A stretch of DNA of 64,000 nt from Verrucomicrobium sp. BvORR106 (GTDB taxonomy: Bacteria; Verrucomicrobiota; Verrucomicrobiia; Verrucomicrobiales; Verrucomicrobiaceae). Position 1 is the first letter of the stretch. The number at the start of each line of letters is the position of its first letter. The stretch spans positions 1 to 64,000 of the forward strand of contig NZ_BATR01000137.1 of assembly GCF_000739655.1 (NCBI RefSeq), read 5' to 3'. Shown piece after piece: positions 2,272 to 43,536 of this stretch. Below the pieces are notes generated by a model. The model made no database searches. It had not been told where the DNA came from and saw only the letters and a program-made list of their open reading frames with translations. A program made the translations under genes and the position numbers.

Positions 2272-2335
2272 CGGTGATTTAGTGATTCAGTAATTCAGTA
2301 AACCGGTAACTCAGCAGGCCAGTGAGTCGGTGGAT
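2272..2335 (+). repeat. Degenerate 8-bp-period tandem array, 8 units
   Basis: Eight consecutive octamers without any indel: CGGTGATT, TAGTGATT, CAGTAATT, CAGTAAAC, CGGTAACT, CAGCAGGC, CAGTGAGT, CGGTGGAT. The consensus is about CRGTRNNT. The array starts 5 nt after the DUF1501 stop codon and decays away from the gene. Confidence 0.85.
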
Positions 2336-2695: not shown

Positions 2696-2751
2696 GCACA
2701 CTGCCCCACGGATCTACTGAATTACTGAGCTACTGAATCACCGATTTACTG
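2696..2751 (-). repeat. Degenerate 8-bp-period tandem array overlapping a stop codon, 7 units
   Basis: Read on the minus strand: CAGTAAAT, CGGTGATT, CAGTAGCT, CAGTAATT, CAGTAGAT, CCGTGGGG, CAGTGTGC, in exact 8-bp register. The second unit contains the TGA stop of the glycosyltransferase gene, so the last residues of that protein (about SVNR) are encoded by the array. Confidence 0.85.
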
Positions 2752-4024
2752 AACTCAGTACGTCATCAAAATCCGCCGCCATCTTCTCCGCGCTAAACCG
2801 CGCCCGCGTATTCTCCCTCCCCTTCCGGCTCAACGCCGTGCGGTGCTCGTGATCCACCAGCACTTTTTCCAGCGTCTGGCTGAGGCTCTTCACGTCATCT
2901 GGATCGCACAACTCGCCACCTTGGGTAATATCCAACAACTCCGGGAAAGCACCATGACGGGGCTGGACGACGGGCAGACCTGCGGCCTGGGCCTCCACCA
3001 CATACAGCCCGAAGGCTTCGCCGTAGGTGGCGGGCACGGAAAAGACAGTGACCTCGTGTAGGAACTTAGTCTTCTCCTCGAAACTCACATTGGGCTCCCA
3101 AGTCACGCGATCCGCCAGACCGGCGGCAGCGAGCTTGGATTGCAGCCCTTCAATGTACTTGTCGTCCGCAGGGGTCTTGGCTCCGGCGATACGCAGCTTC
3201 ACGCCGGGTACGCTGCCGCGTCGGGCGAGTTCGATGAAAGCGTCAACCAAGGTCGTCAGCCCCTTGCCATGGATCATGCGGGCCAGGTAACCGATGGTGG
3301 GAACCTCCGGTTCGCGACGGTCATGCGACCAGCCCTCATAGTTCAGGCCGTTGTACACCACACTCACCCGCTCCGCAGGAACCGCAAGACGTTGCGCCAT
3401 GACCCTGGCGTAGAAGTCACTGGGGGAAATGAAGCGAGCCACGGACTGGGCGTTCTTCTGCATGAGATCCCAAGCCTGCGTGCGATAGGGCTCAGTGAGC
3501 GTGTCCAGAAACGAATCCTCCCCCTGAAGGGAGACCACCACGGGCGCTTTGACCCGACGGACCAGCGCAGGGGCCAATCCGATGAGCAGCGAGTTGGACA
3601 AGGAAATCACGTCGGGCTTGCCCTCAGTCTCCAGCCACTGGATGAGGCGATCCCACTCTGACCACTGACGCCCCTCCTCCCCCAGCAGGCTGCCCACGGT
3701 CATCTCCCCCAAGTCGCGGGCACTGGTCATGCCCATGAACCGCGAAGCCCAGCGCAGCAGATTCTCGCCATCCAGCCAGGTGCGCAGGAAACGCGGCAGG
3801 AACCGAAAGCCGGGCAGGCGCTGCTGCAGGTACAAGGAAACTCCCCCCACTTTCACTGACTGCTCAGGGTTCGCCTCGTCTGCATCCGTCATCAGGGGGA
3901 GGTAGAGCGGGATGATCATCGCATCGTGCCCCCGGGCTCGCAGCGCCTTGATGAGGGCGTTGTCCCGCAGACAGCTTCCGCAGTGAAAGGAACCGGTGCC
4001 AGGCGTGAGGTGAATGATGCGCAT
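2738..4024 (-). CDS. Glycosyltransferase family 4-type protein
   Basis: 428 residues from the ATG at 4024, which begins MRIIHLTPGTGSFHCGSCLRDN; the in-frame extension to 4129 is low-complexity and was not used. The N-terminal half matches the donor-independent lobe of GT-B glycosyltransferases (GSFHCGSCLRDNAL). The C-terminal half has the family 4 region: VVYNGLNYEGW, PTIGYLARMIHGKGLTTLVDAF and the E-x7-E nucleotide-sugar motif within EAFGLYVVEAQAAGLPVV. It likely transfers a sugar from an activated donor during surface polysaccharide or glycolipid synthesis; the substrate is unknown. No biosynthetic neighbours are present. The C-terminus runs into an octamer repeat array that supplies the stop codon. 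Confidence 0.88.
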   Translation of the reverse strand: MRIIHLTPGTGSFHCGSCLRDNALIKALRARGHDAMIIPLYLPLMTDADEANPEQSVKVGGVSLYLQQRLPGFRFLPRFLRTWLDGENLLRWASRFMGMTSARDLGEMTVGSLLGEEGRQWSEWDRLIQWLETEGKPDVISLSNSLLIGLAPALVRRVKAPVVVSLQGEDSFLDTLTEPYRTQAWDLMQKNAQSVARFISPSDFYARVMAQRLAVPAERVSVVYNGLNYEGWSHDRREPEVPTIGYLARMIHGKGLTTLVDAFIELARRGSVPGVKLRIAGAKTPADDKYIEGLQSKLAAAGLADRVTWEPNVSFEEKTKFLHEVTVFSVPATYGEAFGLYVVEAQAAGLPVVQPRHGAFPELLDITQGGELCDPDDVKSLSQTLEKVLVDHEHRTALSRKGRENTRARFSAEKMAADFDDVLSSVNR

Positions 4025-4153
4025 CGGGCAAGAGCAGGCGGGAGAAAGCGGTGATGAAGGAGGGCGGGCAGTGAGGTCAGGGAAATACGTGCGCGAACGC
4101 GCATCCCTTCCGTGGTTCTTACGTCCCACAGCATCGAAATTGTCGCGCCTCAG

Positions 4154-21267: not shown

Positions 21268-21420
21268 GGGGAGGAGACGGAGCGCTGCCAGAATCGAGGG
21301 CTGCGTGTGGATACGTCCCAAACTCCGAGGGCGACAAGGTGCAGAAAATAAAATGCAGACACCATGCATCTATTTCTGCCGACACCCCGTAATGCTTAAT
21401 ACCCGGCACCACCGGGTCCT

Positions 21421-21467
21421 CATGAGGACGACCTCGTGTAGCAAATCCCATCTCCAGGACGGCCTGG
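21421..21467 (+). promoter_or_regulatory. Guanidine-II (mini-ykkC) riboswitch candidate
   Basis: Two short hairpins with the diagnostic ACGR tetraloops stand in tandem. P1 is CATGAGG-ACGA-CCTCGTG (21421-21438), seven pairs including one G-T wobble. P2 is TCCAGG-ACGG-CCTGGA (21453-21468), six pairs. The 14-nt linker is within the known range. The element ends 30 nt before the start of an SMR-family exporter of the SugE/Gdx type, the classic target of guanidine riboswitches. Both loops and both stems agree with the consensus, so the call is strong even without a covariance-model search. Confidence 0.88.
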
Positions 21468-21497: not shown

Positions 21498-21818
21498 ATG
21501 GCATGGATCATCCTTCTGTTGGCCGGCATTTTTGAAATCGCCTGGACCATTGGCCTGAAATACAGCCAAGGCTTCACCAAGCTTGGCCCTTCGCTTTTGA
21601 CCGGCGCGGCGCTGATCATCAGTTTCGCGTTGTTGGGCAACGCCGTCCGCACCCTGCCGCTGGGCACCGCCTACGCGATCTGGACGGGCATCGGTGCCGT
21701 GGGGGCCATCATCGCGGGCATCGTGCTTTTCCACGAGCCTCTGACCCTGGCGCGTTGTTTATTCGCGCTCATGATCGTCGCCGGCATGGTCGGGCTGAAG
21801 TTTACCTCAGGGCAATGA
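21498..21818 (+). CDS. SMR-family exporter, guanidinium exporter (Gdx/SugE) type
   Basis: 106 residues with four transmembrane helices. The conserved membrane-embedded Glu is in IFEIAWTIGLKYSQGF, and GTAYAIWTGIGAVGA plus the late GLKFTSG are SugE/Gdx features rather than EmrE. Gdx proteins are dual-topology homodimers that export guanidinium in exchange for protons. The preceding two-hairpin guanidine-II riboswitch candidate independently supports guanidinium as substrate. No clear Shine-Dalgarno is visible (ACCTCTT precedes ATG), which would fit translational control by the leader. An octamer array begins 3 nt after the stop. Confidence 0.93.
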   Translation: MAWIILLLAGIFEIAWTIGLKYSQGFTKLGPSLLTGAALIISFALLGNAVRTLPLGTAYAIWTGIGAVGAIIAGIVLFHEPLTLARCLFALMIVAGMVGLKFTSGQ

Positions 21819-21821
21819 GTT

Positions 21822-21861
21822 CGGTAGTTCAGTAATCCGGTGGGTCTGTAAGTCGGTAGAC
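21822..21861 (+). repeat. Degenerate 8-bp-period tandem array, 5 units
   Basis: CGGTAGTT, CAGTAATC, CGGTGGGT, CTGTAAGT, CGGTAGAC in exact register, starting 4 nt after the exporter stop codon; a sixth weaker unit CTGGAGGC follows. Confidence 0.82.
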
Positions 21862-21892: not shown

Positions 21893-22023
21893 TGCCGTGG
21901 GGCCACCCAATGGGTCTACCGCTCCGCGGTAGGGGCTCCCGGCCTGCATTCCATGGGTTGCACTCGCTACGCTCGCTTCACCCATGGCTACGCATGGCGA
22001 ACCCTCCGGGTTCATGAGACAAC
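21893..22023 (+). repeat. Dispersed repeat family C, copy 1
   Basis: Contains GGGTCTACCGCTCCGCGGTA (a TACCGC-TCC-GCGGTA hairpin), CCATGGGTTGCACTCGCTAC, GCTCGCTTCACCCATGGCTA and CATGGCGAACCCTCCGGGTT followed by CATGAGA. CCATGGGT and ACCCATGG are complementary arms. The second copy is at 41856-41976. Confidence 0.8.
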
Positions 22024-22040: not shown

Positions 22041-22144
22041 CACCCCCTCCGCTCCCAACCCGGCTGGGACAGCCGGACTACATCATCCGTCTCGCACCGG
22101 GGTTGGAGTTCCGCGTTTACGCGGTCAGTACGCCCCCCCTGACA
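22041..22144 (+). repeat. Dispersed repeat family A, copy 3
   Basis: A full-length unit from CACCCCCTCCGCTCCCAACC through GGGACAGCCGGACTAC to GGGTTGGAGTTCCGCG-TTTA-CGCGGTCAG and CCCCCTGAC. It follows the family C copy by 17 bp. Confidence 0.8.
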
Positions 22145-22181: not shown

Positions 22182-22237
22182 CATCACCGCTCCACTGAAT
22201 TACTGTCCTACCGAATTACTGATTTACCGAATCACCG
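22182..22237 (-). repeat. Degenerate 8-bp-period tandem array overlapping a stop codon, 7 units
   Basis: Minus strand: CGGTGATT, CGGTAAAT, CAGTAATT, CGGTAGGA, CAGTAATT, CAGTGGAG, CGGTGATG, no indels. The first unit holds the TGA stop of the PA14-like gene, in the same position as the unit that stops the glycosyltransferase gene. Confidence 0.85.
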
Positions 22238-23676
22238 CCCTCCTGCGCGCATCCGGTCGAGCGGCGACTCGTCCATCATGGACTTCTTCACTTCGAACAC
22301 CGGGATGTTCTCCAGTTCCAGTTCAAACTCGGGCTTGGTATTGATGAACTGCTTCATGCGCTCGATATCACCCACATCCGGCTTGGTGGTGGTAAAAACG
22401 GGCAGAATAGGGCTGCCATCCGGCCGTTCGCGGTATTTGCCTTTCTTGCTCTGCACGAGCAGCAGGCCACCCACGCGACCCCCGGGACGCTCGCCCACCA
22501 CAATGTCAATCTTGGCAGGGCCGGTGAAGCGCACCCACTTGCCTGCATAGCAGTGCTGAGTACCGGTCAAGACGGGCGGGCCGCCAAAGGCCTGCTTGAT
22601 CTCGGGATCAGGAGTCTGCACGCCGTGATTGCCGATGTTCAACCACGAACCGTCAAACACGCACTTGTTGTTGATGTAGATCACCAGGGCGTCGTCAAAG
22701 TTCCCGACGAAGCGCCACTCGCCGTTCGTGGGCGGGTTGATGACGCCGGTGTAATGCACGTACCAGCACGGGGCTGCACTTCTTTTTCCACGTTGAAGGC
22801 CTTGGGCCCCTCCTCTGCCGCCATGTACGGCACGGTCAGGAAGGTGAAGCTCATCTGCTGGCTGGCGTGGTAATACTCCTTCATCGCCGTAGGGGCGAAC
22901 TTCTTCTCAGCCGCCTTGGCAATGATGGCCGCGTAGTTGTTCGGGTTGTAGTCAATGGGCTTGCGGTCGCCATCCTGCTTCAGGTCATAAAGCGTGCCTG
23001 CCAGGCCATCCCCACCCCGCTTGCCGAAGAAGGTGACTGGCGCAAACCCGCTCACCCCGCCGATACCCTGACCGGTGCCGAAACCGCCACCAGCCCCAGC
23101 CTTGCCAAAACCACCACTACCGGCCATGCCACCCATGAGGCTGCTCGTATCCGGCATAGAGAGGCTGTCCGCCGGGGCGTCTGGCAGGGAGATCGCCGCC
23201 GTGTTGTTCTGGGAAACAATCCGCCGGATCGGCATGGACTTGTTCAAGGTGGTGCGCTTTTTCTGCTGCACTTGCTGGCTGAGGGCCTTGGAGGCCTCCT
23301 GACCCGCCTTGCCACCGCCTGGCAGGAAGTCCACCTTCTTCTCCTGCACGATGGTCTGCACCATGAAGTAGGCCGCCACCAGGATGGCCACGTGAATAAG
23401 CAGGCTCAGCGCGAGGGATCCGCCACCCACCTTGCGCCAGTAGCGGACGACCGCATTTGGCTGCTTGGTGGGGGCGATGTGTGTGGCACCATGGAAATGA
23501 ACCGGGCCCGCCGGGGCGGTCACCACCACCTGCTGGGGAGCTTGCGGCACTGGGGCGGCAGACTGGACCGGGGCTGAGGGGGCAGCTGACTCCGGGACGA
23601 GGCCGGAGACGGTTCCAGAGAGGCTTTGGATCTTGACGGGCCGGGAGGCTGGCGAGGGTGAGTTCTGTGAGTCCAT
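22232..23676 (-). pseudogene. TonB-like-anchored PA14-like protein, frameshifted paralogue 1
   Basis: Two overlapping frames make one ~482-residue protein matching the intact paralogue at 25103-26581. The N-terminal frame reads to GPKAFNVEKEVQPR and then loses homology; the next frame resumes at WYVHYTGVINPP. Comparison shows one missing C on the plus strand near 22767 (GTACCAGCACGG where GTACCAGCCACGG is expected). The N-terminus has a Pro/Ala-rich cytoplasmic stretch, one membrane helix with SLLIHVAIL (Ser91, His95), the shared EKKVDFLPGGG segment, a Gly-rich linker and a PA14-like domain near the break. It could be a real lesion or a sequencing error. The C-terminus ends in an octamer array. 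Confidence 0.8.
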
Positions 23677-30326: not shown

Positions 30327-30362
30327 CATCACCACTTACCCACCTACCACTCACCACTTACC
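30327..30362 (-). repeat. Heptamer tandem array, right flank of the inserted four-helix gene
   Basis: Read on the minus strand: GGTAAGT, GGTGAGT, GGTAGGT, one extra G, GGTAAGT, GGTGATG. It is the inverse of the left array, begins 4 nt after the four-helix stop codon and ends 6 nt before the gspF start, so it covers the ribosome-binding region. Confidence 0.82.
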
Positions 30363-41758: not shown

Positions 41759-41855
41759 CCGCAAGCCCGCCAGACCTCAACACCTCCTTCGAAGCAGGTT
41801 CCCTCCCCCATCAACTCCCGACGACATTTCCGCGATGCATCCGGCAGATCCATCG

Positions 41856-41976
41856 GACCCCATGGGCCTACCGCTCCGCGGTAGAATTCACACCCCGTCA
41901 CACCATGGGTAGTCCTCGCTCCGCTCGGCCGACCCATGGCTATGCATGGCGAACCCTCCGGGTTCATGAGATAACG
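41856..41976 (+). repeat. Dispersed repeat family C, copy 2
   Basis: CCCCATGGGCCTACCGCTCC, GCGGTAGAATTCACACC, CCATGGGTAGTCCTCGCTCC, GCTCGGCCGACCCATGGCTA, CATGGCGAACCCTCCGGGTT followed by CATGAGAT. The CCATGGGT/ACCCATGG arms and the TACCGC-TCC-GCGGTA hairpin agree with copy 1. Confidence 0.8.
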
Positions 41977-41988
41977 CAAGCCGACTGC

Positions 41989-42049
41989 CCGCACGCCGCC
42001 TCGCCTGGCGCCCTACGCCGCACGCCGCCTCGCCTGGCGCCCTACGCCG
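41989..42049 (+). repeat. Two tandem copies of a 29-bp unit
   Basis: CCGCACGCCGCCTCGCCTGG-CGCCCTACG is repeated head to tail directly before the octamer array, with a third truncated start (CCGCGCGCC). Confidence 0.75.
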
Positions 42050-42075
42050 CGCGCCCCTCTCACTGCCCGCACCGG

Positions 42076-42270
42076 ACGCACCGACGCACCGGACGCACCG
42101 ACGCACCGACGCACCGACGCACCGACGCACCGACGCACCGACGCACCGACGCACCGACGCACCGACGCACCGACGCACCGACGCACCGACGCACCGACGC
42201 ACCGACGCACCGACGCACCGACGCACCGACGCACCGACGCACCGACGCACCGGACGCACCGGACGCACCG
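42076..42270 (-). repeat. 24-copy octamer array (CGGTGCGT on the minus strand)
   Basis: On the plus strand the unit is ACGCACCG. Twenty copies run without a single mismatch or indel from 42093 to 42252; two more precede and two follow, each set off by one extra G. Read from the adjacent minus-strand gene, the unit CGGTGCGT fits the CRGTRNNT consensus and 8-bp spacing of the degenerate arrays elsewhere. Confidence 0.95.
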
Positions 42271-42280
42271 ACTCCCCCCC

Positions 42281-43489
42281 TTACTCCAATCTCCCAAACA
42301 TAATCCGCTCCTTGCGGCTCGCGTCGTGATCGCCCTGCGTCACGGTCACATAGATCTCGCCTGCTCCATCGTCATGGAATGCCGGGTACTGGAACGATTT
42401 CTCGGTTTCAAACCGGTACTTCCTCTCCCAGGCTTTGCCGTCCTTGGACACCTCCACGTTGAAAACACTGCGGGACACGTTGTTGATCCGGGTGCTCTCC
42501 TGCCAGCCGAGGTAGTAAACGTCCCTGAACTTGTCCAAGGTCGGTTTCGAACTGGAGCCGTTCGGCACCAGCGTCCGGTGCTCATTCACACTCCACGCCT
42601 TTCCATCCGGGCTGGTGCTGAAGGTGTAGTTTCCATTGCCTCCCTCCTGTCGGCAAATGGCCAGCCAGCTTCCATCGGGCAGGCGGTTCGCGGAAGATTC
42701 CGTGAGCTTCAGTTCCGTCGGCTGATTGTAGTGTCCCAAGACCTCAAAGGTATCGCCTGCCGCATTGAGCCGACCCAAGGCGTTCTGTCCGCCGGGATAG
42801 TTGTTCAGCGTCACATGCCACTGGCCGTCGATCCACTTGAATGAATCAAAGATGTAGAGACCGAAATCCACGGGCTTCCGCGTGAAGCCTGCCGTGACGG
42901 CATCCGCATGGAAGTACTGGGGCTCCATGTCAAAGGTCCCGGCCGCGGTCTTGATCTTCGTTTTGTGAAGCTCATTCGCCAACTTCCCGGTCTTCACATC
43001 ATAGTCCAGGTACCAGGTCACCGATTGCCGTTTCCCAGGTTCCTCGCTCGCGAAGTAGATCCGCAGGGTGCTCTCGTTGAGTTTCAAGATCCGCGGCACA
43101 AAGCAGGCTCCCACAGGCAGCGTCACATTGCCAAAGGCCTGCCCACCCCGGGCGAAGTCATGCTGCGCCTCCACCTTCATGCTGGGCACATCCACGACCG
43201 TCAGCGTGACATAGACAAAGGGCCATGCCGCAGCTTCACCCGGCTTTTCGTCATTGGCCTCGGCCACAATGTACGCCTTGTCCCCCACGATCACGAACTC
43301 CGCATCGTGCGCCCCCTTTACTTGAGGCTTGGTCACATTGACCAGTCGCCCCATCACCTTATCCGCCTCTGCCTTGGCATCCCAGGCCGCAGGCAACAAC
43401 TTGGACTCCACAGCAAAAAGACCGCCACCAAAACCGGTAAAGGCACAAACAGCAATGAAGGGTAAGAGGAGCGTGTTTCTCGTGAGCAT
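42281..43489 (-). CDS. Secreted sialidase-fold (BNR-type beta-propeller) protein
   Basis: 402 residues from ATG 43489, giving a signal peptide (MLTRNTLLLPFIAVCAFTGF). Repeated short motifs such as YTFSTSPDGKAW, FNVEVSKDGKAW and the blade-like GNVTLPVGACFVPRIL and SANRLPDGSWLAICRQEGG resemble the Asp-box/BNR repeats of six-bladed propellers. This suggests a glycan-binding or exo-sialidase-like protein outside the cytoplasm, but catalytic Arg and Tyr residues cannot be confirmed. The 3' end meets the octamer array 10 bp after the stop codon. Confidence 0.75.
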   Translation of the reverse strand: MLTRNTLLLPFIAVCAFTGFGGGLFAVESKLLPAAWDAKAEADKVMGRLVNVTKPQVKGAHDAEFVIVGDKAYIVAEANDEKPGEAAAWPFVYVTLTVVDVPSMKVEAQHDFARGGQAFGNVTLPVGACFVPRILKLNESTLRIYFASEEPGKRQSVTWYLDYDVKTGKLANELHKTKIKTAAGTFDMEPQYFHADAVTAGFTRKPVDFGLYIFDSFKWIDGQWHVTLNNYPGGQNALGRLNAAGDTFEVLGHYNQPTELKLTESSANRLPDGSWLAICRQEGGNGNYTFSTSPDGKAWSVNEHRTLVPNGSSSKPTLDKFRDVYYLGWQESTRINNVSRSVFNVEVSKDGKAWERKYRFETEKSFQYPAFHDDGAGEIYVTVTQGDHDASRKERIMFGRLE

Positions 43490-43536
43490 GGACGAGACCA
43501 TACGCCCCTGGAACAACTGCCCTATCACCCCACCGC

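Follow-up and report, generated by a model that had tools for sequence, protein, structure and literature searches.

The window, i.e. the whole analyzed stretch of 64,000 nucleotides, belongs to contig C73 of the Verrucomicrobium sp. BvORR106 draft genome (8.69 Mb in 209 contigs; hereafter G000). On its minus strand, an octamer array with the unit CGGTGCGT was found at position 42068..42272, comprising about 24-25 copies, a number that is possibly inexact in a draft assembly, and including a few 9-mers with an additional C. Tandem Repeats Finder assigned 25.1 copies with a match of 97% to the range 42068-42272. The unbroken core (42093..42252, minus strand) consists of 20 perfect CGGTGCGT units and is bordered by more units of this type, some of which are one C longer. 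The array starts approximately 10 bp past the stop codon of an ORF of 415 amino acids (42281..43528, minus strand). Both the 24-copy array and its distance to this gene, as described in the initial annotation, were confirmed. The ORF is kept in the two sister genomes of the same genus, G001 and G003, with 89-92% identity, and no Pfam family was identified for it above threshold. The folding of the unit CGGTGCGT into a hairpin was found to be no better than that of shuffled sequences, and no Rfam match was detected at the octamer arrays. A 29-bp tandem repeat with 2.5 copies (41989-42059) immediately adjoins the array.

Four degenerate arrays with the consensus CRGTRNNY could be identified in the window, all of them at gene 3′ ends, as had been claimed for four diverged arrays. 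On the plus strand, the array at 2272..2335 begins 4 bp past the stop codon of an ORF with a DUF1501 domain (852-2267) and is missing from G003, while the array at 21822..21861 follows a gene of the small multidrug resistance (SMR) family (21498-21818), 3 bp past its stop codon. On the minus strand, the second unit of the array at 2696..2751, CGGTGATT, forms the stop codon of a glycosyltransferase ORF (2738-4129), and a CGGTGATT unit of the array at 22182..22237 bears the stop codon of the ORF 22232-22759. The units of the four arrays include CAGTAATT and CAGTAAAC in addition to CGGTGATT.

Other elements were observed in the same regions. A Guanidine-II (mini-ykkC) riboswitch is located at 21420-21467 (plus strand), shortly upstream of the SMR family gene. 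A dispersed palindromic repeat, CCATGGGYCTACCGC ... GAACCCTCCGGGTTCATGAG, is present at approximately 41855-41975 and at 21905-22015; elsewhere in the genome it is a frequent 3′ neighbor of octamer arrays. A second one, GGGTTGGAGTTCCGCGTTTACGCGGTCAGGACGC, lies between paired convergent arrays at approximately 2400-2600 and 22090-22130.

The 24-copy array is a member of a dispersed octamer family, CRGTRNNY, in Verrucomicrobium. Exact runs of the perfect unit CGGTGCGT were located on 12 contigs of G000. A whole-genome search for 3.5 units (CRGTRNNYx3+CRGT) resulted in 246 matches compared to 0 for the backwards pattern, by which chance is excluded. A scoring scan of 1.18 Mb of G000 revealed 59 arrays versus 7 in the reversed sequence, a count that is no density estimate since the stretches were mostly picked for holding arrays. 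A sample of G003 taken at regular spacing and totaling 800 kb yielded nine CRGTRNNY arrays, accepted by their visibly plain units (raw count of 10 versus 5 in the reversed control), which suggests approximately 90 arrays per genome. A tandem-repeat scan free of any consensus assigned period 7 to 44 and period 8 to 45 of 151 noncoding arrays; tandem repeats in coding DNA favor periods 9 and 12. With respect to the units, 36 arrays contain AT-type units only, 14 contain GCGT-type units only and eight are mixed (e.g., C42:12099 and C127:24704). The recurrent AT-type units are AATT (33 loci), GATT (29) and AAAC (18).

Named matches to the repeat include Verrucomicrobium sp. BvORR034, and the same CRGT core was found in several phyla. 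In the literature searched, no published description of CRGTRNNY arrays in Verrucomicrobium was found. Lone single units at stop codons, sought as widespread seeds, were not detected; the arrays are all-or-none. The initial annotation had attributed the five arrays of the window to one generating process. This is supported by the same consensus and phase throughout the genome, by the mixed arrays and by perfect and degenerate forms swapping at orthologous loci. Enrichment was not missing in the genome-wide scan, nor did the consensus differ from locus to locus.

A home-made codon-based gene caller and ORF test, used instead of a standard gene-calling program, placed an ORF boundary at the CRGT-strand 5′ edge of 52 of the 59 G000 arrays, compared to 11 of 59 for the right (3′) edges and 19.5% for random intergenic positions. 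Usually, the array provides the stop codon or comes after it. In 33 arrays the stop codon lies within a unit, with offsets of 6, 14, 22 and 30 in 17, 8, 7 and 1 cases, respectively. A minority of arrays adjoin an antisense gene at its start codon, with 2-3 bp in between. The earlier statement that the arrays are always located at gene 3′ ends is therefore valid in the window but not genome-wide, and 3′-end specificity was rejected. The placement rule is that the CRGT strand has its 5′ edge at either type of ORF boundary.

In G003, inspection by eye placed a stop codon at or just ahead of the 5′ edge. Among other Verrucomicrobiales the ORF boundary was on the left edge in 17 and on the right edge in 5 cases (n = 26), and among named loci, mostly from other phyla, in 15 and 2 cases (n = 27), in a test that leans slightly to the left because the CRGT strand has more stop codons than its complement. 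The heptamer arrays of G000 are arranged alike (26 left versus 6 right; n = 55).

Of 44 arrays located in G000 stretches with clear GC skew, 38 have CRGT on the leading strand, an assignment that depends on the local skew of the draft. The genes of clear-skew stretches are split 49/51, with 321 of 658 on the leading strand. In G003, where the GC skew changes sign near 0 and 4 Mb, the CRGT strand is leading in 14 of 19 placed arrays (two-sided p ~0.06). A leading-strand bias is likewise a feature of the polar octamers AIMS and KOPS. The edge rule looks primary over the strand rule, since most strand exceptions still obey it.

The comparison with the two sister genomes, which is one between species, revealed that orthologous gene edges mostly retain an array and that copy number and units differ. 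The array at C58:19378 has 6, 8 and 2 units in G000, G001 and G003, respectively, and that at C107:24340 has 7, 10 and 2. At C33:4299, CGGTGCGT in G000 corresponds to TGGTGCGT in G003, and at C33:5491 the array is degenerate in G000 and perfect in both relatives (CAGTGCGT x6-7). Of 14 internal alignment gaps between ortholog arrays, nine are 8 or 16 bp long. Two loci are without an array in a relative; at C125:51472 the array is missing in a relative and a different repeat adjoins the same start codon. The arrays are thus inherited at orthologous gene edges, their copy number shifts in whole 8-bp steps, and units are replaced or homogenized locally. At the window locus itself, a single CGGTGCGT precedes CAGTTGG x6 in G003, and CGGTGGGT CAGTAGG is found in G001. 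Because no more than one or two units are present here in the sister genomes, the 24 copies are specific to this lineage and probably represent a recent expansion. A polar growth with young units at one end was rejected: 13 arrays have most of their variable units on the 5′ side and 27 have them on the 3′ side, and no consistent growth direction was found within the genus.

Several known repeats resemble this family. The GGGAATC / GGGGA(C/T)T heptamers of Xanthomonas and Nostoc are also dispersed, intergenic, short tandem arrays with variable copy number (Rehm et al., 2015; PMC4692102). They adjoin the 5′-neighboring ORF in any direction, after sense stops and before antisense starts, and this edge rule has already been described, without a leading or lagging preference (PMC4692102). 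CRGTRNNY arrays likewise have the 5′ side of the repeat strand beside an ORF, at the frequencies given above. In contrast, the GGGAATC unit is a quadruplex-capable G-tract of 7 nt without strand preference, whereas CRGTRNNY has 8 nt, is strongly leading-strand and, judged by sequence, lacks a GGG core. The TAACTGA heptamers of Beggiatoaceae, Cyanobacteria and Bacteroidetes often end 1 nt ahead of start codons or overlap stop codons (MacGregor, 2015; PMC4679880). They are similar in forming short arrays at start and stop codons and in having stop codons in all frames, and their reverse complement TCAGTTA has the TCAGT core in common with the octamer arrays. However, they are 7 nt long with little degeneracy and are mostly found at start codons, while the Verrucomicrobium unit is the degenerate 8-nt CRGTRNNY, mostly at stop codons.

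Heterocystous cyanobacteria carry degenerate tandem arrays with a 7-nt unit, scattered over intergenic regions and known as short tandemly repeated repetitive (STRR) sequences. CRGTRNNY arrays are alike in being dispersed, intergenic and degenerate, but differ in consensus and unit length: the period is 8 instead of the strict heptanucleotide, and G000 has heptamer arrays in addition, separate from the octamers. Long simple sequence repeats (SSRs) of 5-11 nt (Mrazek and co-workers, in the summary given in PMC4679880) are non-triplet, intergenic and ascribed to polymerase slippage. They are described there as independent repeats, whereas CRGTRNNY is one family with a consensus and an edge rule. 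As in the STRR and long-SSR classes, the tandem unit lies within 5-11 nt, the many dispersed loci are mainly intergenic, and the copy numbers of relatives differ by whole units, here between species. The CRGTRNNY family extends the STRR class of 7-letter repeats by a new octamer form, set apart from the GGGAATC and TAACTGA heptamers by unit length, degeneracy and strand bias. The comparison shows that the known, poorly understood heptamer class of bacteria and the octamers follow common placement rules.

The window array probably belongs to an octanucleotide short tandem repeat family that turns over by slippage and falls into the general class of heptamer STRR sequences and long SSRs. Replication slippage, together with unequal exchange at a local scale, would cause the unit turnover, and the recent expansion, in one lineage, of a single CGGTGCGT unit such as that present at the site in a relative would have produced the 24 perfect copies. 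The arrays may persist owing to their location in noncoding DNA and because their units end or flank reading frames harmlessly. Slippage and local homogenization account for the turnover and for the 24-copy array. Plain slippage, however, does not predict the common consensus at approximately 100 unrelated loci, the fixed 5′ edge or the strand bias. For the edge, the most likely cause would be one-way growth of the array, or erosion of its flank, until purifying selection on the CDS halts it; for the strand bias, it would be a strand-dependent stability of the G/T-rich strand. In bacteria, short tandem repeats are commonly viewed as accidents of slippage that arose independently of each other; the shared consensus, a coding-boundary edge in several phyla and the strand bias make slippage alone an incomplete account. 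Verrucomicrobium spinosum, with a single-contig genome and many arrays, is a usable model for array origin and for the stopping at genes. It is unlikely, as a joint claim, that some conserved process in the cell generates or preserves polar arrays of 7-8 nt in several phyla, with the 5′ edge set at ORF boundaries and the strand by replication, and that the heptamer and octamer families are its outputs.

The initial annotation had further regarded the 24-copy array as the fresh form of the degenerate ones. The first half of this statement is supported in part by the probable recent expansion at the window locus. The second half, that the perfect type is made first and decays into degenerate arrays, fits the lineage-specific nature of this expansion and the shared phase of the mixed arrays, but is distinctly unlikely. 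The degenerate units (CAGTAATT, CGGTGATT, CAGTAAAC) are mostly three changes away from GCGT units (154 of 286 units at three substitutions from C[AG]GTGCGT) and have a recurrent vocabulary of their own, which disfavors simple decay; moreover, at C33:5491 it is G000 that is degenerate. The AT-type units are more than worn copies of the perfect unit.

A role of the arrays as candidate DNA or RNA binding sites, in which a sequence-specific protein reads CRGT every 8 nt and selection keeps the core while removing other expansions, is possible but doubtful. A binding of translational regulators was proposed for the TAACTGA repeats (MacGregor, 2015; PMC4679880), which end 1 nt upstream of start codons, similar to the 2-3 nt between the antisense-start arrays and the ATG. 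The same core occurs across several phyla, and in aligned ortholog units the G in the third position is changed in 1 of 116 cases compared to 14 of 116 for the T in position 4; this near-invariance is a hint of constraint or selection rather than proof, since this G was part of the pattern used to select the arrays. On the other hand, the T in position 4 decays at 12%, the genes beside the arrays have no evident common function, and in relatives another repeat adjoins the start codon concerned at C125:51472. As the orientation of the arrays at stops is opposite to that at starts, no single RNA strand bears the signal. The dispersed copies, the strand bias and recurring 3′ flanks, e.g., GGGGTTCGAGGTAA and a palindromic repeat, would fit a small mobile element (RAYT/REP-like or a small dispersed repeat) that carries octamers and inserts at stop codons on one replication strand. 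This origin is very unlikely, since the flanks fall into several unrelated classes, most loci are common to the sister species and clean empty sites are few. Both enzymes considered as correlates were rejected: Y1 transposases (PF01797) are present in nearly all genomes, equally in those without arrays, and the presence of reverse transcriptases (PF00078) does not track the arrays, some array-bearing genomes with incomplete assemblies having none detected. An assembly or sequencing artefact is extremely improbable; short perfect repeats may be misassembled and the exact draft copy number is uncertain, but the same loci and family were found in three separate genomes, of which G003 consists of one contig (8,220,857 bp).

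At other loci of G000, arrays were observed that change from one homogeneous octamer block to the next. At C179:55351-55518, CGGTGTGT x9 is followed by CGGTGCGG x5, and from C144:10101 onward CGGTGCGT is followed by approximately 15 copies of GGAGGCGT. In the window, a heptamer array of ACCACTT (30331-30362) fills an intergenic gap at a distance of 6-7 nt from each gene. It represents one of many heptamer families of G000 that likewise adjoin ORF edges.
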